Below are positions 4,515-14,725 of a DNA stretch of 40,268 nucleotides, in pieces. The notes below the pieces were generated by a model. The model was not told the origin of the DNA, ran no database searches, and was given only the letters and a program-made list of their open reading frames with translations. The position numbers and the translations under genes are program-made. The stretch comes from Alphaproteobacteria bacterium (GTDB taxonomy: Bacteria > Pseudomonadota > Alphaproteobacteria > Micavibrionales > Micavibrionaceae). Numbering within the stretch: the stretch's first letter is position 1; each line of letters starts with the position of its first letter. The DNA lies in assembly GCA_021775995.1 (NCBI GenBank), contig JAJFGS010000002.1, forward strand, positions 1 to 40,268, written 5' to 3'.

Positions 4515-4583
4515 ATTTTATACAAAATATAAACACTAAACCTTGATATTTATCAAGCCTTCCAGATACTTAGATGGTACAAT
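4515..4583. promoter_or_regulatory. Divergent FNR-box promoter (RND exporter / DUF350)
   Basis: The perfect palindrome CTTGATATTTATCAAG (core TTGAT-N4-ATCAA at 4543-4556) lies between the divergent exporter and DUF350 genes. On the minus strand TAAAAT (4515-4520) is centred 32 bp from the box centre. On the plus strand TACAAT (4578-4583) is centred 31 bp away. Both fit class II activation at about -41.5. Predicted transcript starts are near 4508 (-) and 4590 (+). The box is directly visible; FNR-family binding is inferred. Confidence 0.7.
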
Positions 4584-4620: not shown

Positions 4621-5505
4621 ATGGATTTAGTATATTGGGATCACAGCTATAACGGCGTTATATTGTTGAATTTGCTTATTGTTATTGCATTGTTCACTTG
4701 CTTACGACTGTTCTCAGGCACTATCGCACATATTAATGCTTCTGATGAATTGCTCAAAAAAGATAATGCTGCTTTTGGCCTTACACTGGCTGGTGTTACT
4801 TTCGCTGTTACAATTCTTTTAAGTGGGACCATATACGGTGATCCGGGTGGTGACTTGGCCGATTCAGCCTTTTTTGTCGGTGCTTTTGGCATTCTTGGTA
4901 TTTCTCTTATGGCATTAACACGCCTTATTTTTGATAAGATCACGCTACCTGATATTTCTTTACGAGATGAAATTTCCAAAGGTAACATGGCAGTTGCTAT
5001 TGCTGATGTATCAAATGTTTTAGCTACAGCCATTATCATTCGTGCCATCATGATCTGGGTAACTGACAATTCCTTTGAAGGTTTAATCGCTTTAATCATC
5101 GCCTTTTTTGTTTCTCAAATTATTTTGACGTTAGCAACATATTTAAAACGTCGTATGTTTTCTAAACTATATGCAGGGAGATCTGTTCAAGAAGAATTGA
5201 AGAATGGTAATATTGCCTTGGCTCTATCTTTCGCTGGATGGAAGATAGGAACAGCCTTTGCTATCAGTGTAGCGGCAAACATTGTTGTCTACGAAGTCTA
5301 TGATATAAAAACAATTTTTCTACCGTGGATTATTGTTTCTATTGCCGCCATTCTTATTTTAAAGATCATCTCTTATATTGCGGAGCGTATTGTTTTATTT
5401 CAAGTTAACACAATGCGTGAAATATTGGATGACAGAAACATTGCGATTGGTGCTTTACAGGCTGTGATTTATGTTTCTATGGCATTGTTGATTGCAGAAT
5501 TGTAG
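4621..5505 (+). CDS. Tandem DUF350 membrane protein
   Basis: 294 residues forming two similar halves. Each half has a DUF350-like four-helix unit. Half one has NAAFGLTLAGVTFAVTILLSG followed by GNMAVAIADVSNVLATAIIIR; half two has GNIALALSFAGWKIGTAFAIS and later DDRNIAIGALQAVIYVSMAL. DUF350 (YjfL) proteins are inner-membrane proteins of undefined function, often near stress or membrane-lipid genes. GAGGG lies upstream of the ATG. The gene is read from the divergent FNR-type promoter at 4543-4556. It converges on the LysE gene with only 4 bp between stops and no visible terminator. Confidence 0.85.
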   Translation: MDLVYWDHSYNGVILLNLLIVIALFTCLRLFSGTIAHINASDELLKKDNAAFGLTLAGVTFAVTILLSGTIYGDPGGDLADSAFFVGAFGILGISLMALTRLIFDKITLPDISLRDEISKGNMAVAIADVSNVLATAIIIRAIMIWVTDNSFEGLIALIIAFFVSQIILTLATYLKRRMFSKLYAGRSVQEELKNGNIALALSFAGWKIGTAFAISVAANIVVYEVYDIKTIFLPWIIVSIAAILILKIISYIAERIVLFQVNTMREILDDRNIAIGALQAVIYVSMALLIAEL

Positions 5506-6537: not shown

Positions 6538-6972
6538 TTAAGCGACTGCTTTATATAGAACATGCTTAACAACATTTGTAATATCATCTGTCTTGGCTTC
6601 ATATCGTAATATACTGCCAAAAGACAAGATACCAACTACTTCCCCGCCGTGATTTCTGACAATTAAACGACTCACTTTATGATCTTTCATTTTTTTTGCC
6701 GCATCTTCTAGAAAATCATCCTCGTTACAGCCGTACGCAGCAACAGTCATGTAATCTTTTACCTGTTCCTCCGAAGGGGTTTTATTTTCTGCTATCGCAT
6801 TAACGATTATATCTCGGTCTGTAATAACACCTTCTATTCTATCTGCTGTTCCAACAGGTAAAAAACCACAGTCAACGGCTTTCATCATTTCTGATGCTTC
6901 TTGTAGGCTACTCTTTCCAGAAATAATCACTGGATTTTTGCTCATCACATCACTTACTTTTAAGTTATTCAT
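6538..6972 (-). CDS. Two-CBS-domain stress/regulatory protein
   Basis: 144 residues forming a CBS pair (Bateman module). CBS1 runs from VSDVMSKNPVIIS to GVITDRDIIVNAIAE. CBS2 runs from VKDYMTVAAYGCNEDD to VSRLIVRNHGGEVVGILSFG. These modules bind AMP, ATP or NADH and report energy state. Earlier starts (TTG, ATG) are in frame, but ATG 6970-6972 is preferred because GGAGG lies 5 nt upstream of it, inside the longer reading. The gene heads a three-gene operon. It has an FNR-type box 57 bp upstream, which suggests induction at low oxygen. Confidence 0.9.
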   Translation of the reverse strand: MNNLKVSDVMSKNPVIISGKSSLQEASEMMKAVDCGFLPVGTADRIEGVITDRDIIVNAIAENKTPSEEQVKDYMTVAAYGCNEDDFLEDAAKKMKDHKVSRLIVRNHGGEVVGILSFGSILRYEAKTDDITNVVKHVLYKAVA

Positions 6973-7000
6973 TTCATCCTCCATCAAGTTATATGAGTTT

Positions 7001-7042
7001 AGGAAAGCACAATTTATTCTCTATAGTTTTGATTTTTATCAA
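7001..7042 (-). promoter_or_regulatory. FNR-box promoter of the CBS operon
   Basis: TTGAT-TTTT-ATCAA at 7029-7042. Centred 32 bp away on the minus strand is an extended -10, TG-C-TTTCCT (hexamer 7001-7006). The hexamer itself is weak, which is usual for activator-dependent promoters. The predicted transcript start is near 6994, giving a leader of about 20 nt. Confidence 0.65.
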
Positions 7043-7066
7043 GAAATAAAACTTAAGTTTTTTTGA
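7038..7066. repeat. 29-bp promoter-linked direct repeat, copy 1
   Basis: Identical over 29 bp to 7645-7673. It begins with the right half of the FNR-type box (ATCAA) and contains the perfect palindrome AAAACTTAAGTTTT (7048-7061). It lies upstream of the CBS promoter. It is either a duplicated promoter segment or a second conserved operator/UP element. Confidence 0.75.
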
Positions 7067-7188
7067 AACTGTTCATAGAGTAATTTTGTTAGAGTGATAA
7101 ACAACAATGGTGTATTGTAATTTTGATTTCATTAAAAAGATCAAGGGTTGCTTTTATTTTGTACGGCAATCACAAATTTCATACCAAA

Positions 7189-7610: not shown

Positions 7611-7649
7611 AAAGCATAAAATAGGTAACCTAATATTGATCATTATCAA
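7608..7649 (-). promoter_or_regulatory. FNR-box promoter of the IcmD-like gene
   Basis: TTGAT-CATT-ATCAA at 7636-7649. The extended -10 TG-C-TTTTAT has its hexamer at 7608-7613, centred 32 bp from the box. Predicted start near 7601 (-). The element TATGC followed by the hexamer is shared with the Hsp20 and EF-hand promoters. Confidence 0.68.
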
Positions 7650-7673
7650 GAAATAAAACTTAAGTTTTTTTGA
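7645..7673. repeat. 29-bp promoter-linked direct repeat, copy 2
   Basis: Second copy of the segment at 7038-7066, again starting in the right half of an FNR-type box and containing AAAACTTAAGTTTT (7655-7668). Here it lies between two boxes (7636-7649 and 7670-7683) that serve opposite strands. Confidence 0.75.
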
Positions 7674-7711
7674 CAAAAATCAAGAGAACGAAGGCATGAA
7701 TATGCTCTACT
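7670..7711 (+). promoter_or_regulatory. FNR-box promoter of the EF-hand/USP operon
   Basis: TTGAC-AAAA-ATCAA (7670-7683), one base off the perfect palindrome, lies 32 bp from the extended -10 TG-C-TCTACT (hexamer 7706-7711). The box centre is exactly 41.5 bp before the A of ATG 7718, so the predicted transcript would start at the start codon. Confidence 0.6.
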
Positions 7712-7717
7712 GACCCT

Positions 7718-8218
7718 ATGGAGAAATATTTTAAAGAGAATATCGTAAGGAAAATATTGGCGGTTTTTTTTATGACTCTGGTCATACTCACCCTTTTTGT
7801 TCTGACTGCTTTTGCAGAGGAGAAAAAAGAAGAAGTCGAAATAGAGTTTCATAAAGCGGACGTTGTCAATGATGGAAAGATCGACAGAGGCGAATTTGAT
7901 ATATACCATCATGATGTTTTTAAAGAATTAGATAGTAATCACGATCAGGTTATTACCCCAGAAGAGTGCGTTAGCAACTGCTTTACCGATAAAAGCAAGG
8001 TTCAGAAAATGGATAATGTGAAATATGAATTCAATAATATAGATATAGACGGAAGTGGTGTTATTCAGATATATGAATTTATTCTTCATGGTCGAGAAAA
8101 ATTTAGAGTTCATGACGTTAATGGAGATAATTTAATTGATAAAAATGAATTTTGTAGTTTTTACCAAGCTACAATGCCGTGCGCTTTCATTGTAGCAGAA
8201 GAAGGAAATTTAAAATGA
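7718..8218 (+). CDS. Exported or membrane-anchored four EF-hand calcium-binding protein
   Basis: 166 residues. An N-terminal hydrophobic helix (about 12-32, ending AFA-EE) targets it to the envelope. Four canonical 12-residue EF loops follow: D48-E59 (DVVNDGKIDRGE, third position hydrophobic), D72-E83 (DSNHDQVITPEE), D109-E120 (DIDGSGVIQIYE) and D133-E144 (DVNGDNLIDKNE). It is a calmodulin-like calcium buffer or sensor, probably periplasmic. Four other cysteines (in EECVSNC, EFC and MPC) could form disulfides. ATG 7718 has no Shine-Dalgarno; an alternative TTG near 7758 has AAGGA but would shorten the n-region. It heads the operon EF-hand, USP, PH, NAXD, Crp/Fnr and overlaps USP by ATGA. Confidence 0.82.
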   Translation: MEKYFKENIVRKILAVFFMTLVILTLFVLTAFAEEKKEEVEIEFHKADVVNDGKIDRGEFDIYHHDVFKELDSNHDQVITPEECVSNCFTDKSKVQKMDNVKYEFNNIDIDGSGVIQIYEFILHGREKFRVHDVNGDNLIDKNEFCSFYQATMPCAFIVAEEGNLK

Positions 8219-9078
8219 AAAAAATATTACTTGCGACTGATTTGACGGCTAGATCTGACCGTGCAATGGGACGTGCTATACAAATTGCTAAAGAACAAAA
8301 TGCGCAGCTTCATATTTTACATGTTGTTCCCCCTTATAAAAAAAGCCCTGCGAATTCTTCTTTAAAAGAACAAGCAGAAGACTTAATTAGAGTTTTTTTA
8401 GACGGTTACCAAGGGCATGCAAGTATAAGAAAGCATATTGAAATTGTTGAGAGCAGTGAAATCTATCAATCAGTCTTGGATTATGCCCATAAAATCAAAG
8501 TAGACCTTATTGTGATGGGACTTCATGGTAAAACAAAATTTCGTGATTTATTTGTAGGTACAAATATTGAGCGTGTTGTTCGTATTGGAAATAAACCTGT
8601 TTTAATGGTTAAAGATAAAGCGATTGAACCATATAAGGAGGTTGTTTCTGCAGTAGATTTTGCGCTGGCTTCGCGTAATGCTCTGCGCTTTGCTTATGGT
8701 GTTTGTCCTAAAGCGGAGTTTGAGGTTATTCATACTTATTTTATACCCACTGCTTATGCATCGGGCGCAGGTATGGCGTATGCCGTGCAAATAAATGACA
8801 ATACTGAAAAAGAACAACATAAAGCGATGGTTTCCTTCGTTAATACAGAAGAGAGTTATTATAAAAAAACGTATGGTGGTAAAACATTGAAGCTGATTTA
8901 TGAGTTATCAGAAGGAAGTCCGTATAGAACGCTTGTGAATAAGGTAAAAAAGAAAAAAGCTGATTTGATAACAATTGGAGCGCACAGTAAGTCTATTATA
9001 ACTCCCTCAAAATTAGGGGGTGTTGCAGAAGATATTTTGTCCAATCCGCCTTGTGACGTTCTTGTTTTGAGTGAATAG
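8215..9078 (+). CDS. Tandem universal stress protein (UspA family)
   Basis: 287 residues from ATG 8215, which overlaps the preceding TGA (ATGA) and has AAGGAAA upstream. Two Usp domains are present. Domain 1 (about 1-145) begins KKILLATDLTARSDRAMGRA and carries the ATP-binding signature G-x2-G-x9-G-T (GLHGKTKFRDLFVGT). Domain 2 (about 147-287) has VVSAVDFALASRNALRFA but lacks that glycine motif (GAHSKSIITPSK), so only the first half probably binds ATP. Tandem USPs are typical of anaerobic or hypoxic stress regulons, which fits the FNR-type promoter. The next gene starts 2 bp after the stop. Confidence 0.93.
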   Translation: MKKILLATDLTARSDRAMGRAIQIAKEQNAQLHILHVVPPYKKSPANSSLKEQAEDLIRVFLDGYQGHASIRKHIEIVESSEIYQSVLDYAHKIKVDLIVMGLHGKTKFRDLFVGTNIERVVRIGNKPVLMVKDKAIEPYKEVVSAVDFALASRNALRFAYGVCPKAEFEVIHTYFIPTAYASGAGMAYAVQINDNTEKEQHKAMVSFVNTEESYYKKTYGGKTLKLIYELSEGSPYRTLVNKVKKKKADLITIGAHSKSIITPSKLGGVAEDILSNPPCDVLVLSE

Positions 9079-9080
9079 AT

Positions 9081-9755
9081 ATGAGTTATGTTGCCAAAGC
9101 AATTAGCGATGAAGAGCGTCTACTAACGCTTGCACGCCCACACTGGATATATTTGATGACTGGATTTGTCTGGTGGATGATATTTATCTTAATCGGACTT
9201 TTTCTGGATAAATATTTTGATGAATATTTAAGTCGTTATTCTCTAGATTTTTTTCTTAATCTAAAAATTATCTATTTTAGTGGGCAGGTAACTCCTATAT
9301 CGGTCATGTTCACATTGATAGGTATTACTGCTTTTTGGCCGTTCTTCATGACTTATATTTCTTCTGAAATTGGGCTTACAAATGAACGTATCATTTATAA
9401 AACAGGGCTTATTTTTGTTCAAATAGATCAAGTTGATTTAGATGATATTCGTGCCGAACATATTTACCATGGGTGGTTAGGATGGTTTTTAGGCTATGGC
9501 AAGATTAGGATTGATTGCCGTTTTATTGAAGATCTCAAATTACCAGCAATCAGTAAGCCTTATAGATTAGTCAAGGCATCTCATAATGCTAGATACAGAC
9601 ATCCTGAAATTGAATATGGCCATGATGAGTTTTCTGGTAGATTAAAACAAATTGAACATCATCAAACACAAGCCACACCAGCCAAAAAAATAGAAAAATT
9701 AAAAAATCAATTCAAAATAAGTTTTTGGAAATCAGCGAGAGATAAATCGGCTTGA
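9081..9755 (+). CDS. PH-domain (bPH2-like) membrane protein
   Basis: 224 residues. Two membrane helices (about 25-45 and 72-92) are followed by a bacterial PH-like domain. The domain starts SEIGLTNERIIYKTGLIF, continues with QVDLDDIRAEHIYHG and ends LGYGKIRIDC, the usual bPH_2/YdbT pattern. After about 165 the chain is polar and basic (a cytoplasmic tail with KKIEKLKNQFK). The function of such proteins is unclear; many act in envelope stress or membrane organisation. The start lies 2 bp after USP and the next gene starts 3 bp after its stop, so it is inside the operon. Confidence 0.8.
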   Translation: MSYVAKAISDEERLLTLARPHWIYLMTGFVWWMIFILIGLFLDKYFDEYLSRYSLDFFLNLKIIYFSGQVTPISVMFTLIGITAFWPFFMTYISSEIGLTNERIIYKTGLIFVQIDQVDLDDIRAEHIYHGWLGWFLGYGKIRIDCRFIEDLKLPAISKPYRLVKASHNARYRHPEIEYGHDEFSGRLKQIEHHQTQATPAKKIEKLKNQFKISFWKSARDKSA

Positions 9756-9758
9756 ATC

Positions 9759-10511
9759 ATGCAAGAAAATATTCCAGATTTATGGCGACACTTATTGCCA
9801 GAGAAAACAAAAGAAGGTCATAAATATGATTATGGTTCGGTAGTTCTGTATGGTGCGGATGAATTAACGGGTGCCACAAGACTAGCAGCAAGTGCCTGCG
9901 CTAGAATGGGGGCTGGATTGGTTACTGTTTTAGCGAATTCTAAAATTGCAAACGTCTATCGCACTACCTTACCAGCCCATATTATGGTTCGAGATGATTT
10001 GAATTGGCAGAATGATAGCGTGAACGTAAAAATTTATGGCTGTGGTGGTTTATCTGTTAGACCCGATTATAAATCAAAAATATTAACAGTTTTGGATGCA
10101 GCAGCATTAGAAAATTTACCCAACAAGTTGTCTTCAAACTATGTTTTAACACCGCATGAGGGAGAATTTGATAAGGCCTTTCCGCATTTAAAAGGAAGCC
10201 GAGAAGAAAGAGCTATTGAAGCAGCAAAACAGATAAAGGCGTATATTATTTTAAAAGGATCTGAAACGATCATAGCCTGTCCTGATGGAAAGCATATTAT
10301 TAGCCGCCATGCCTCTCCTACGTTAGCCACAGCGGGCAGTGGCGATGTTTTAGCAGGGATTATCGGTGGGCTTCTCGCACAAAAAATGCCCATTTTTCAA
10401 GCCTGTATGGCAGCAACATGGATACATGGAGAGTGTGCCTATAAATTTGGTAAAGGACTGGTGGCGACAGACATTATTGATATGCTACCTTCCGTTTTAC
10501 AGAATCTATAA
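9759..10511 (+). CDS. nnrD: Stand-alone ADP/ATP-dependent NAD(P)H-hydrate dehydratase
   Basis: 250 residues of the ribokinase-like NAXD/YjeF C-terminal fold, which repairs hydrated NADH and NADPH. Visible motifs: YDYGSVVLYGADELTGATRLA near the start, TPHEGEFDKAF, LKGSETIIACPDG and ATAGSGDVLAGIIGGLLAQ (the catalytic GSGD loop with the nucleotide-binding glycines). The usual GPGLG and DADAL motifs appear as YGCGGLS and LDAAALENL, and the segment between is short. The N-terminal NAXE epimerase domain, fused in most bacteria, is absent. It is within the USP operon, which links cofactor repair to the stress response. Activity is likely but the altered motifs lower certainty. Confidence 0.85.
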   Translation: MQENIPDLWRHLLPEKTKEGHKYDYGSVVLYGADELTGATRLAASACARMGAGLVTVLANSKIANVYRTTLPAHIMVRDDLNWQNDSVNVKIYGCGGLSVRPDYKSKILTVLDAAALENLPNKLSSNYVLTPHEGEFDKAFPHLKGSREERAIEAAKQIKAYIILKGSETIIACPDGKHIISRHASPTLATAGSGDVLAGIIGGLLAQKMPIFQACMAATWIHGECAYKFGKGLVATDIIDMLPSVLQNL

Positions 10512-10570: not shown

Positions 10571-11341
10571 ATGGATGTTTCTGCCGAACATATTGATAGG
10601 TTTTTTAAAGATTTACCTTTTTTTAAAGGCATGGATGAAGCGGATATTTCTGATTTCATTAAAAAGTCTAATCTCAAAAAATATTCAAAAAATCAGGTTG
10701 TGTTTTTGCACGGAGATAAGGCTGAGAAATTTTTTATTGTCTTCAATGGTTGGATTAAACTGCACCGTGAAACACCAGAAGGGGAGGAAGCAGTAATCGG
10801 TTTATTAACACGAGGTGATATGTTTGGTGATGCTGCTATTTTCTGTGAAGCAAAATACCCGTTTTCTGCACATTGCGCGGAGGAAACGCAGTTAATTGAA
10901 ATTCCTACATATTTTTTAAGAGAAAAAGGCAAATCACACCCCGAAGTCATGGAAAATTTATTGAGCATGATGTGCCATGACATGAAATCTGTTCGACTAG
11001 AAAACGAGCATATGGCACTTATGAGTACGCCCCAGCGTGTTGGTTGTCTTCTTCTTCAATTATCTTCTGGTATGGTTGGAAAAGGAGGGACGTTTTCTTT
11101 CCCTTACGATAAGTCTCTTGCCGCCATAAGGCTTGGTATGAAACCAGAAACTTTTTCTAGGGCTTTGGTGCAGTTAAGGCCATTCGGAGTAAGCGTTAAA
11201 GGTTCCGAAATTACAATTGATAGTTTTGAAACTCTTGTTGAATATACCTGTAGTCACTGTTCTGCAACGCCAGGAGAGTGTAGGCGGGCTGATCATTGTA
11301 ACGCCGATTGCCCTAAGAAAAAATTATGTTCTGCGGCTTAG
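10571..11341 (+). CDS. Crp/Fnr-family regulator with a six-cysteine C-terminal tail
   Basis: 256 residues. An N-terminal cyclic-nucleotide-binding-like beta barrel (about 10-115, FKGMDEADI to FLREKG) is followed by a dimer helix (about 120-150) and a winged helix (about 153-220). The recognition helix KPETFSRALVQL has E193-x-x-S196-R197, the FNR combination that reads TTGAT. The N-terminal FeS cysteines of FNR are missing. After the winged helix a tail (227-253) has six cysteines, C227-x2-C-x6-C-x5-C-x3-C-x5-C253, which suggests a metal or FeS site. It is 59 bp after nnrD, the last gene of the operon, and converges on the host-attachment gene with 4 bp between. It is the obvious candidate to bind the five TTGAT-N4-ATCAA boxes nearby. 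Confidence 0.88.
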   Translation: MDVSAEHIDRFFKDLPFFKGMDEADISDFIKKSNLKKYSKNQVVFLHGDKAEKFFIVFNGWIKLHRETPEGEEAVIGLLTRGDMFGDAAIFCEAKYPFSAHCAEETQLIEIPTYFLREKGKSHPEVMENLLSMMCHDMKSVRLENEHMALMSTPQRVGCLLLQLSSGMVGKGGTFSFPYDKSLAAIRLGMKPETFSRALVQLRPFGVSVKGSEITIDSFETLVEYTCSHCSATPGECRRADHCNADCPKKKLCSAA

Positions 11342-11345
11342 GTTT

Positions 11346-11861
11346 CTAAAACCAGACAATTTTTTCTATAGCTTTTTCAAACTCTCTATCATTTAGCTTG
11401 GTTAAGTCTTTATCAACCTCAGCAATAATAAGGCTTTTTACCAATTTGCTTAAATTTGATCGTAAATTCCCTAACATTTTAGGAGAGGCAACTATGACTA
11501 ACCGATCAAAAGCATCTGCTGTTTTAACTCGTTCTAAGAAATTTGATACTTCACGCGCGAAAGTTAATTCTTCTTGTCTTGTTTCATTCATGTGAGGTTC
11601 AAATTTGTGATGCACTGTACTTCCTGCTGCACTTACCATTCGTCCCATCGTTTTATTGTTAATTTCAGATTCGACAAGGCTTTTTTCTGGCTCGGCCTCA
11701 CCAATTAACTCCATGCGGTTATTAACTTTCTTATATATTCTAGCTAGATGATTATCTGCGGTTAATACCCAAATTCGTGCTGTTTTTTTTCCATTTTTTA
11801 AAGGCGGCTTCTTTGTAAAAGATACAAGCCCATCATCCATTAATTTTCCAGTGAGTTTCAT
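11346..11861 (-). CDS. Host-attachment-family protein (Host_attach-like)
   Basis: 171 residues. It shows the family pattern: a beta strand ARIWVLTADNHLARIYKKV, a middle segment with HHKFEPHMNETRQEELTFAREVSNFL, then LVIVASPKMLGNLRSNL and a terminal IAEVDKDLTKL. The family is named for an Agrobacterium protein needed for host-cell attachment but is widespread and resembles eRF1-like/baeRF folds; its biochemical role is unclear. It follows Hsp20 on the same strand with 70 bp between, and a hairpin with a T-run (11880-11917) lies there, so expression is probably partly attenuated. Heat-shock or FNR co-control is inferred. Confidence 0.72.
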   Translation of the reverse strand: MKLTGKLMDDGLVSFTKKPPLKNGKKTARIWVLTADNHLARIYKKVNNRMELIGEAEPEKSLVESEINNKTMGRMVSAAGSTVHHKFEPHMNETRQEELTFAREVSNFLERVKTADAFDRLVIVASPKMLGNLRSNLSKLVKSLIIAEVDKDLTKLNDREFEKAIEKIVWF

Positions 11862-11931: not shown

Positions 11932-12429
11932 TTAAGCGGCTTTTTTAATTTCTAGCTTTCTGGGCTTTTGCAAAGCTTCTGCTTTTTTTGGTACTTCAAT
12001 TTTTAAGACGCCATTTTTAAAACTAGCTTCGGCTTTATCGCAGTCTGCTGTTTCAGGTAGAGCAATAACTCGTTGAAAAGAACCATAAGATGTTTCTTGG
12101 CGTAAATAATTTTCTCCTTCTTCATCTTTTTCTTCTTCCTTTTCACCTTTAATTGTTAAAAATCCATCTGTTACAGATATTTCAACATCTTTTGGGGACA
12201 TCCCTGCTATTTCAGCTTTGACTCTGAAACTTTCTCCATTTTCAACAACGTCAATAGACGGAAATTTATCTTGGCTTAGCCAAGTAGGAAAATCCGTATC
12301 ATGAAAAAAATCATGAACCATACGATCCATATCCTCATGTAAAGAGCTTAAAGAACGTCCAAAACGGCTTCTTTGAAGCACAGGCACTTTAGAGGGGCGA
12401 TTCCAATGAATGAGTTCGTTTAATGTCAT
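11932..12429 (-). CDS. Hsp20/alpha-crystallin small heat-shock protein
   Basis: 165 residues. An N-terminal arm (1-45) is followed by the alpha-crystallin domain (about 50-150) with PSIDVVENGESFRVKAEIAGM, VEISVTDGFLTIKGEKEEE, and the end motif ASFKNGVLKIEVPK. A basic tail follows. It is an ATP-independent holdase that keeps unfolded proteins soluble. ATG 12429 has AGGAGG 7 nt upstream. The FNR-type box at 12495-12508 lies 66 bp upstream with an extended -10 in class II position. This matches the presence of Hsp20 genes in hypoxia regulons of other bacteria. The host-attachment gene follows after a hairpin. Confidence 0.94.
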   Translation of the reverse strand: MTLNELIHWNRPSKVPVLQRSRFGRSLSSLHEDMDRMVHDFFHDTDFPTWLSQDKFPSIDVVENGESFRVKAEIAGMSPKDVEISVTDGFLTIKGEKEEEKDEEGENYLRQETSYGSFQRVIALPETADCDKAEASFKNGVLKIEVPKKAEALQKPRKLEIKKAA

Positions 12430-12466: not shown

Positions 12467-12536
12467 ATCAAAGCATAAAAAACTTTGGTCTTATTTGATA
12501 AAAATCAAGAAAATATAAAATTAAATTTTGTACAGT
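12467..12536. promoter_or_regulatory. Divergent FNR-box promoter (Hsp20 / unknown membrane protein)
   Basis: TTGAT-AAAA-ATCAA at 12495-12508 between divergent genes. On the minus strand the extended -10 TG-C-TTTGAT has its hexamer at 12467-12472; on the plus strand TACAGT lies at 12531-12536. Both are centred exactly 32 bp from the box centre. Predicted starts are near 12460 (-) and 12543 (+), just before AAGGAGG. Confidence 0.7.
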
Positions 12537-12559: not shown

Positions 12560-13171
12560 ATGTCTGACAATGTTGCAAAAGGATTTTCTGCTCAGAGTGG
12601 CGGTGCTGCTGTTGGGAATGCTATTGGGATGGCACATTCTCAGTCTGGTAGGACGCATATGGTTTTGTTAAGTGTTGTCGCTGTTGCTGGTGGGTGGGTG
12701 GCTTCTGTTCTTATTGTGTCTGAACCAGAACCAAAGCTTGAATCTATTCTTGAGAAGCGGCTCGAACAAAAACACTATGATGAAGAATATGAAAGAACAC
12801 ATCCTAGTGAAAAACAGAAAGGAGAGAAGTTACAAGAATATAATATGGAGCAACATATATCAGACACTATTCATTTATATATCTCTTCTGATATGGAAGA
12901 CGAATTATTGGAGGAAATGGCCGTATTGAAAGAGGATTTTGCTGATACTTATGAGAAGGATCTTCATTATCACTTTCAAAAAAATATTGGAGAAATATTT
13001 CTTGATTACGATTTTCACCTAGCTGTTCTTTCTGATGAACCAGAACCAATTATTCAGGGTGATGCCAGAACACCTAAAACATTAAACAAGGAACCAGAAT
13101 TAAGAAATGAGCCAAATAGACAATATAATAAAAATCGCGCATTACTTGAGCGTTTGGAATTAGATGGGTGA
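12560..13171 (+). CDS. Single-pass membrane protein of unknown function, FNR-box controlled
   Basis: 203 residues. A glycine/serine-rich N-terminus (1-33) precedes one membrane helix (about 34-54, VLLSVVAVAGGWVASVLIV), then a highly charged, mostly helical domain rich in Glu and Lys (55-200), ending in a polar, probably disordered tail. I recognise no family. The ribosome site AAGGAGG, 8 nt before ATG 12560, is the strongest in the region, so high translation is expected. It shares the divergent FNR-type box with Hsp20. A GC-rich terminator lies at 13327-13349. Confidence 0.72.
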   Translation: MSDNVAKGFSAQSGGAAVGNAIGMAHSQSGRTHMVLLSVVAVAGGWVASVLIVSEPEPKLESILEKRLEQKHYDEEYERTHPSEKQKGEKLQEYNMEQHISDTIHLYISSDMEDELLEEMAVLKEDFADTYEKDLHYHFQKNIGEIFLDYDFHLAVLSDEPEPIIQGDARTPKTLNKEPELRNEPNRQYNKNRALLERLELDG

Positions 13172-14150: not shown

Positions 14151-14164
14151 CTTTGAAAAACCTG

Positions 14165-14725
14165 TCATCAACAGTTTACCCAACGGGCGCAGTACGCTTT
14201 AGTGCCAAGCCAGCTGGTGATGGTGATCGCGTTATCGACACAGGCGCTTTTGCTGCTGTCGATAGTGTTCATGTTTCTGGTGCCGAAGCGGCTGGTGTTT
14301 TTGGTCCGGTTAGTTTCCAAGGTGAATATTTCAAAACAGATGTAAGTCGTGAAAATGGTATGCCTGATGCCGAATTTGACGGTTATTATGCGCAGGCTGG
14401 TGTTTTCTTGACCGGTGAATCGCGTCCTTATAAAGGCAAAGTTGGTAATTTCAGCCGCGTGAAACCCAAAAATCCATTTAGCCTGAAAAACGGTGGTTGG
14501 GGTGCCTGGGAACTTGTAGCACGTCATTCAAATACGGACCTTAATGATATGGGCAGCGGTATTATGGGCGGTGAACTTGAACAAACAAGCGGCGGTGTGA
14601 ACTGGCACTTAACAGATCGTATTCGTGTGATGGGGAATGTCGTTGCCGTAGATACGGACAGTAATGCCGTGGTCGCAGACGATGATCCAATTGTCTACAA
14701 TGTTCGTGGTCAGTGGGATTTTTAA
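14165..14725 (+). pseudogene. Phosphate-selective porin (OprO/OprP-like), C-terminal remnant
   Basis: About 185 residues match the last third of OprO/OprP-type porins: RVIDTGAFAAVDSVHVSGAEA, then VFGPVSFQGEYFKTDV, GGWGAWELVARHSNTDLND, and a C-terminal strand ending VRGQWDF with the terminal Phe needed for outer-membrane insertion. No signal peptide and no upstream two-thirds exist; before about 14165 the sequence belongs to an unrelated opposite-strand gene. The open frame starts only at a TTG (14153) without a ribosome site. I read it as a truncated gene left by deletion or recombination near 14150-14185. The intact C-terminus shows the loss is not old. Confidence 0.78.

Follow-up and report, generated by a model that had tools for sequence, protein, structure and literature searches.

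Crp/Fnr regulators with a C-terminal cysteine tail occupy the genomic place of FnrL in one alphaproteobacterial branch and probably sense oxygen through an Fe-S cluster held by the tail

The Crp/Fnr-family regulator analyzed here, which is encoded in a stretch of 40,268 nucleotides (hereafter referred to as the window), is best described as an FNR-like oxygen (redox) switch whose Fe-S site would lie in the DNA-binding domain, and from sequence comparison we give this reading a probability of roughly 0.65. The conserved site of the family is made up of four cysteines (C159, C227, C230, and C237) and not of a six-cysteine tail, tailed relatives are found beside genes typical of FnrL neighborhoods, and FnrL itself is nearly absent from the window's order. 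The coordinates of the features discussed below are given in Table 1.

Both a cNMP-binding domain (PF00027, E = 1.5e-19) and a Crp-type HTH domain (PF13545, E = 8.8e-7) are matched above their cut-offs, which places the protein in the Crp/Fnr superfamily on both counts, and a Foldseek search with its AlphaFold model (8 sequences, mean pLDDT of 73) confirmed the Crp/Fnr fold with a match to 3fx3. A previous sequence-only reading of this gene had described six cysteines behind the winged helix, the lack of the N-terminal Fe-S cysteines, and intact DNA-reading residues of the E-x-x-S-R type, and these descriptions are exact. The tail reads C227-x2-C230-x6-C237-x5-C243-x3-C247-x5-C253 with codons from 11249, C92 is the most N-terminal cysteine, which leaves the N-terminal FNR cysteines absent, and E193 is followed by S196-R197 in the recognition helix. 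In the AlphaFold model C159 falls within helix 153–164, while residues 231–256 of the tail have a pLDDT below 50 and are not resolved, so we make no claim about the geometry between C159 and the tail.

Table 1. Features of the window that bear on the regulator and its surroundings.
Feature	Position	Strand	Basis or remark
Crp/Fnr-family regulator, 256 aa	10571..11341	+	ORF call, Pfam matches, alignment A1 with 7 relatives
E193-T-F-S-R197, FNR-type DNA-reading residues	11147..11161	+	S196 and R197 in 82/82, E193 in 81/82 tailed homologs
Conserved tail core C227-x2-C230-x6-C237	11249..11281	+	Alignments
C243, C247, C253, non-conserved extra tail cysteines	11297..11329	+	3/82, 15/82, 2/82
C159 codon, helix D, QRVGC motif, proposed fourth ligand	11045..11047	+	Conservation; model helix 153–164
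H147 codon, end of dimerisation helix (ENEH), alternative fourth ligand	11009..11011	+	Conservation
EF-hand protein	7718-8218	+	Upstream same-strand gene
Universal stress protein	8215-9078	+	Upstream same-strand gene
Protein without Pfam match at 1e-5	9081-9755	+	Upstream same-strand gene
NAD(P)H-hydrate dehydratase	9759-10511	+	Upstream same-strand gene
Host_attach/baeRF12, convergent to regulator	11346-11861	-	Domain scan; family in 15/21 regions
Hsp20, convergent to regulator	11932-12429	-	Domain scan
CBS-domain protein, recurrent neighbor	6538..6987	-	7/21 regions
DUF350 membrane protein, recurrent neighbor	4621..5505	+	5/21 regions
Exact FNR box TTGATATTTATCAA, intergenic, upstream of DUF350 gene	4543..4556		Pattern search
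Exact FNR box TTGATTTTTATCAA, intergenic, upstream of CBS gene	7029..7042		Pattern search
Exact FNR box TTGATCATTATCAA, intergenic, before same-strand run ending in regulator	7636..7649		Pattern search
Second box, one mismatch, TTGACAAAAATCAA	7670..7683		Pattern search
Exact FNR box TTGATAAAAATCAA, intergenic, between Hsp20 gene and ORF at 12560	12495..12508		Pattern search

Conservation divides the six tail cysteines. All seven relatives in alignment A1 (47–61% identity, from Micavibrio and unclassified Alphaproteobacteria or Pseudomonadota, with a distant partial match from Microbulbifer omitted) keep C227, C230, S231, and C237 together with E144-N-E-H147 and C159, and one of them (L010) keeps the core cysteines while missing all three distal ones. 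For a wider alignment, 133 distinct Crp/Fnr homologs were gathered from loci in the order, class, and phylum of the window; 82 have the tail, 46 lack it, and 5 carry a different tail (L-C-x-F-C-D...). C227, C230, and C237 occur in 82/82 tailed homologs but served as the selection criterion for this set, so that C159 is the independent result: it is present in every tailed homolog, in 1 of the 46 untailed homologs, and in none of the 5 with the other tail. The distal cysteines C243, C247, and C253 are found in only 3, 15, and 2 of the 82, respectively. The tailed proteins are diverse (mean identity of 41% and a minimum of 23% over 1500 sampled pairs), and all of them agree with the window protein at 14 columns, namely the four cysteines and ten others including S196 and R197. 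The spacing between the second and third tail cysteines is x5 in 50, x6 (as in the window) in 31, and x2 in a single homolog.

H147 is kept less strictly, being present in 74 of the 82 tailed homologs and in one untailed homolog (L161), with Q (3), R (2), N, L, and S (1 each) in the remaining eight. In a first set of 96 homologs from the order, where the 77 counted as tailed include three of the other tail type, the 19 untailed members have neither C159 nor H147. They carry Q144 in 17 cases and Q147 in 17, mostly read Q-I/L-E-Q where tailed proteins read E-N-E-H, and have alanine (13) or threonine (6) at residue 159. Two of the 46 untailed proteins (L117 and L123) carry yet another cysteine-rich tail, with alanine at 159.

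To place these counts on a phylogeny, we used a quick tree built without the tail and without columns 144–147 and 159, in which support is weak for 55 of the 130 inner branches. The tail requires 3 changes on this tree, C159 only 2, and H147 11. The co-occurrence of tail and C159 thus rests on few independent events, and an independent-pairs test found only 2 pairs on well-supported branches, too few for power; that H147 changes 11 times while C159 stays, however, argues for selection on C159. H147 was dropped as the sole candidate for a fourth ligand because of these 11 changes, its absence from eight tailed homologs, and its presence in L161. As judged from the alignments, the fourth ligand is probably C159 as the first choice, or else H147. 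The six-cysteine site proposed from the sequence alone therefore reduces to three conserved tail cysteines plus C159, which had been missed, and the loss of conservation that was named there as the refuting outcome is seen for C243, C247, and C253 but not for C227, C230, and C237. What stands is the idea of a metal or Fe-S sensor behind the DNA-binding domain, for which conservation and gene context together make the best case.

Such a sensor has a precedent. Like the regulator described here, Fnr of Bacillus subtilis and B. cereus has three C-terminal cysteines behind the winged helix. In the sequence that we take to be B. subtilis Fnr, whose D141 and C227/C230/C235 agree with the published numbers, the C-x2-C pair aligns with C227 and C230 of the window protein, Asp141 (the fourth ligand of Bacillus Fnr) aligns with H147 and so is not shared, a serine stands at the position of the invariant C159, and overall similarity is low (76 bits against profile A2). 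This presumed alignment of C-x2-C and of Asp141 with H147 makes it likely that a cluster would sit at the same place of the DNA-binding domain here. In Bacillus Fnr, C227-x2-C230-x4-C235 and Asp141 are proven to hold a C-terminal [4Fe-4S] cluster that is destroyed by oxygen, a tail spacing of x4 as compared to x6 in the window and x5 in the sister group treated below (PMC3520743). The response occurs without a change between dimer and monomer, according to PMC12937710. The earlier assertion that no family with this tail had been described is thus contradicted by the C-terminal cysteine extension through which B. subtilis and B. cereus Fnr ligate [4Fe-4S] (PMC3520743; PMC12937710). For an alphaproteobacterial C-terminal cysteine tail we found no description in the literature searched, outside of which most subscription papers fell. 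The tailed family would probably have arisen independently of Bacillus Fnr.

With FnrL, FnrP, and FNR of Gram-negative bacteria the regulator shares E-x-x-S-R, TTGAT-N4-ATCAA boxes, and a position at ccoNOQP/hemN, but these proteins have N-terminal cluster cysteines (C-x2-C-x(5-8)-C) and the regulator has none. It stays below the cut-offs of the NCBIfam FnrL/Fnr models (NF045989, 23.4 of 300 bits; NF008365, 48.3 of 228 bits), and its best-scoring NCBIfam model, FtrB (NF006901), is reached with 99 bits, far under the cut-off of 211. Among solved structures, Ruegeria pomeroyi 3fx3/3h3z come closest in both sequence and fold, followed by DNR as the best named relative by sequence; none of the matches runs past the beginning of the tail, as they stop at profile positions 226–227 in 3fx3/3h3z and 221 in DNR. 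We would expect the regulator to work like FNR, and most like Bacillus Fnr; it lacks defining features of both and is filed here as neither.

The tailed family is not confined to one protein, since the tail together with C159 was verified in no fewer than 66 of the 142 order genomes, with the window type (x6) in 26 and the sister group (C-x2-C-x5-C) in 41. The FnrL model has a match at E ≤ 1e-30 in 1 of these 142 genomes (G039) vs. 74 of 190 in a class sample, in which two or more genomes belong to the order. In 66 of the 74 class genomes the N-terminal stretch is part of the best match, and in the other eight this match starts at profile position 30 or later, so that these may be FixK-like; among the best 30 of the class FnrL loci, all 30 have N-terminal C-x2-C-x(5-8)-C and none has a cysteine tail. 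The protein of G039 has N-terminal cysteines, and that genome gives no match to the tailed profile A1 at E ≤ 1e-30. Conversely, none of ten class genomes outside the order taken as tailed (the tails having been read in eight, that is, in all but G320 and G284) has an FnrL match at E ≤ 1e-15, and NF045989 has no match in the window's own genome at E ≤ 1e-30.

At E ≤ 1e-55, 41 of 385 class-sample genomes pass; 30 of their loci were read, and the tail is present in 9, of which two lie in the order. At the same threshold 11 of 398 phylum-sample genomes match, with tails of the window kind in three (G000, G796, and G443), all of the same class, and no tail in the only matching genome outside the class (G594). 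Proteins with a CGxCS-type tail (x5; L124, L133, L134, L143, and L152, all with C159) make up a third tailed subgroup, which occurs in the class outside the order and once inside it (L124). A plasmid collection yielded 63 records for the window protein, all below 60% identity, and for the presumed B. subtilis Fnr sequence 8 records, all below 60% identity and none of them a Bacillus Fnr.

The window's own genome (2.0 Mb in 15 contigs) encodes two other Crp/Fnr proteins above the HTH_Crp_2 cut-off (L002 and L003), both without N-terminal FNR cysteines, and a third protein (L066) with a weaker, partial match below the cut-off. One of the two paralogs (L003, positions 1462–2292 of own-genome contig C6, beside a moeA-like gene) carries a different cysteine tail (LCHFCDLDTAHEC...NCPHC) and Y159, and the five proteins with this tail type form one branch of the tree.

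The genomic surroundings of the family resemble those of FnrL. In Rhodobacter sphaeroides, fnrL adjoins ccoNOQP, uspA, and hemZ, and FnrL binds at ccoNOQP, uspA, hemN, hemZ, and ompW; in many Alphaproteobacteria an FNR gene lies in the immediate neighborhood of the cbb3 genes (PMC2908626). For the sister group, 20 regions were fetched from the 41 order genomes with that spacing, and in 19 of them ccoN and ccoO (cbb3 oxidase) are nearby and read away from the regulator, in most regions with one gene in between; the twentieth has hemN and an OmpW-like gene instead. For the window type, we compared the window with the regions of 20 relatives, 21 regions in all, which cover 21 of the 26 order genomes having it. 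These hold hemN in 5, and ccoN, ubiV, nrdG2-type, and OmpW-like genes in 3 each, next to Host_attach/baeRF12 (15), CBS (7), Hsp20 (6), Usp (5), a second Usp-like family recognized by eye (5), and DUF350 genes (5), the neighbor families being named from one scanned member each and the OmpW model not reaching its cut-off. HemN, UbiV, and NrdG2 are the oxygen-independent versions in their pathways. Since it recurs in so many of the window-type regions, the Host_attach/baeRF12 protein and the regulator may work together. No match to ccoN was found in the window's own genome at E ≤ 1e-100. At L052, L054, and L055 the surroundings of hemN, ubiV, and nrdG2-type genes include a close pair of tailed regulators, whose members may divide the anaerobic regulon. 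At 14153–14725 the window has a 190-residue frame whose product looks, by eye, like the C-terminal part of a porin and may be a remnant.

The window is also rich in FNR boxes. Five exact TTGAT-N4-ATCAA sites are present vs. 0.19 expected, a count reached in none of 200 simulations; four are intergenic and within 6.1 kb of the regulator gene, and one (20579) is inside a gene. Allowing up to one mismatch gives 13 sites, whereas 100 shuffles average 4.9 and never reach 13. Across the 21 window-type regions there are 32 exact boxes vs. 0 for the reversed pattern, in the own genome 21 vs. 2, and in the congener with a window-type ortholog (G014) 28 vs. 2. Eight other congeners have 11 to 17 exact boxes each despite having no window-type regulator, two of them (G011, 77% complete, and G015) carrying a sister-group regulator. 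Of the 16 own-genome boxes outside the window the surroundings of 10 were read, and 8 of the 10 lie in an open frame (one, L183, with a doubtful frame start), so that the window's intergenic cluster stands out against boxes elsewhere in the genome. The sister group shows the same type of site at the regulators themselves, with TTGAY-N4-RTCAA within 300 bases upstream or in the first 30 bases at 18 of 20 genes (0 in the reversed control) and 36 sites in the whole regions vs. 3 in the control.

Directly before the window regulator gene there is no box, as compared to 6 of the 21 x6 loci that have one. The gene instead closes the same-strand run that starts at the 7636/7670 boxes, and the run may form one transcript. 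L002 and L003 also carry E-T-F-S-R and both could use the same sites; the window regulator would probably control its own stress-gene neighborhood through the boxes at 4543, 7029, 7636/7670, and 12495. The promoters at 7029–7067 and 7636–7674 share a stretch behind the box (GAAATAAAACTTAAGTTTTTTTGA), as though one had arisen as a copy of the other.

Other uses of the four cysteines have to be weighed against this background. A C-x2-C pair with two further cysteines is also a zinc pattern, and a structural or sensory zinc ion could stabilize the winged helix or respond to metals or oxidants with no Fe-S cluster involved; the variable spacing of the third cysteine would be tolerable for a zinc site. 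The FnrL-like gene context (cbb3 oxidase, hemN, and ubiV) and the near lack of canonical FnrL in the order speak against zinc, which we consider unlikely. A thiol-disulfide or thiol-oxidation switch sensing oxidants would have models in CprK and FixK2, which have redox-active cysteines (PMC12937710), and would suit the Usp, Hsp20, and CBS genes around the regulator; a disulfide, however, needs fewer than four co-conserved cysteines, and the sister group is located at cbb3 operons, which makes such a switch improbable.

A third possibility keeps the Fe-S cluster and changes the signal, with the regulator as a DNR/NnrR relative that senses nitric oxide and not oxygen. In a PDB search the family profile does score DNR (3dkw, E = 8.5e-30) above the FNR chains (E = 4e-22 to 1e-21). 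The defining trait of DNR and NnrR is heme-dependent NO sensing. No denitrification gene is found among the recurrent neighbor families that were identified, and in the own genome it is the other two Crp/Fnr proteins that lie at molybdenum-cofactor loci (moaA and moeA by eye), so we regard NO sensing as very improbable. That the regulator and its nearest kin use all six tail cysteines for one or several special sites of their own is hardly credible given the counts for the distal three and their absence from L010, even though the ortholog in congener G014 (L031) has all three.

The FNR-like oxygen switch that we prefer would operate as follows. In the absence of oxygen, C227, C230, and C237 together with C159 (or H147) would hold one Fe-S cluster per subunit, probably [4Fe-4S]. 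Placed inside the DNA-binding domain, the cluster would clamp the tail onto helix D and so keep the recognition helix, with E-T-F-S-R, in the pose that reads TTGAT-N4-ATCAA. Destruction of the cluster by oxygen would open the clamp, and DNA binding would be lost with no dimer-monomer change required. In this role the regulator would match FnrL in function while belonging to a different branch of Crp/Fnr proteins. We see an even chance that the family represents a second C-terminal Fe-S FNR, this one Gram-negative, in which a DNR-like ancestor gained a [4Fe-4S] site with cysteine ligands only, from C159 in helix D and from C227, C230, and C237 in the tail, and took over the cbb3/hemN regulon and the seat of FnrL, with loss of canonical FnrL from the order.

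A 2026 structural paper on FNR/CRP proteins places the cluster of Gram-negative FNR at the N-terminus and that of Gram-positive FNR in the C-terminal DNA-binding domain (PMC12937710). A Gram-negative family with its cluster in the DNA-binding domain, if true, would break this split and would suggest that the Crp/Fnr scaffold acquired oxygen sensing at one and the same place more than once. It would also name the likely oxygen regulator of Micavibrio and its relatives, a group nearly without FnrL.
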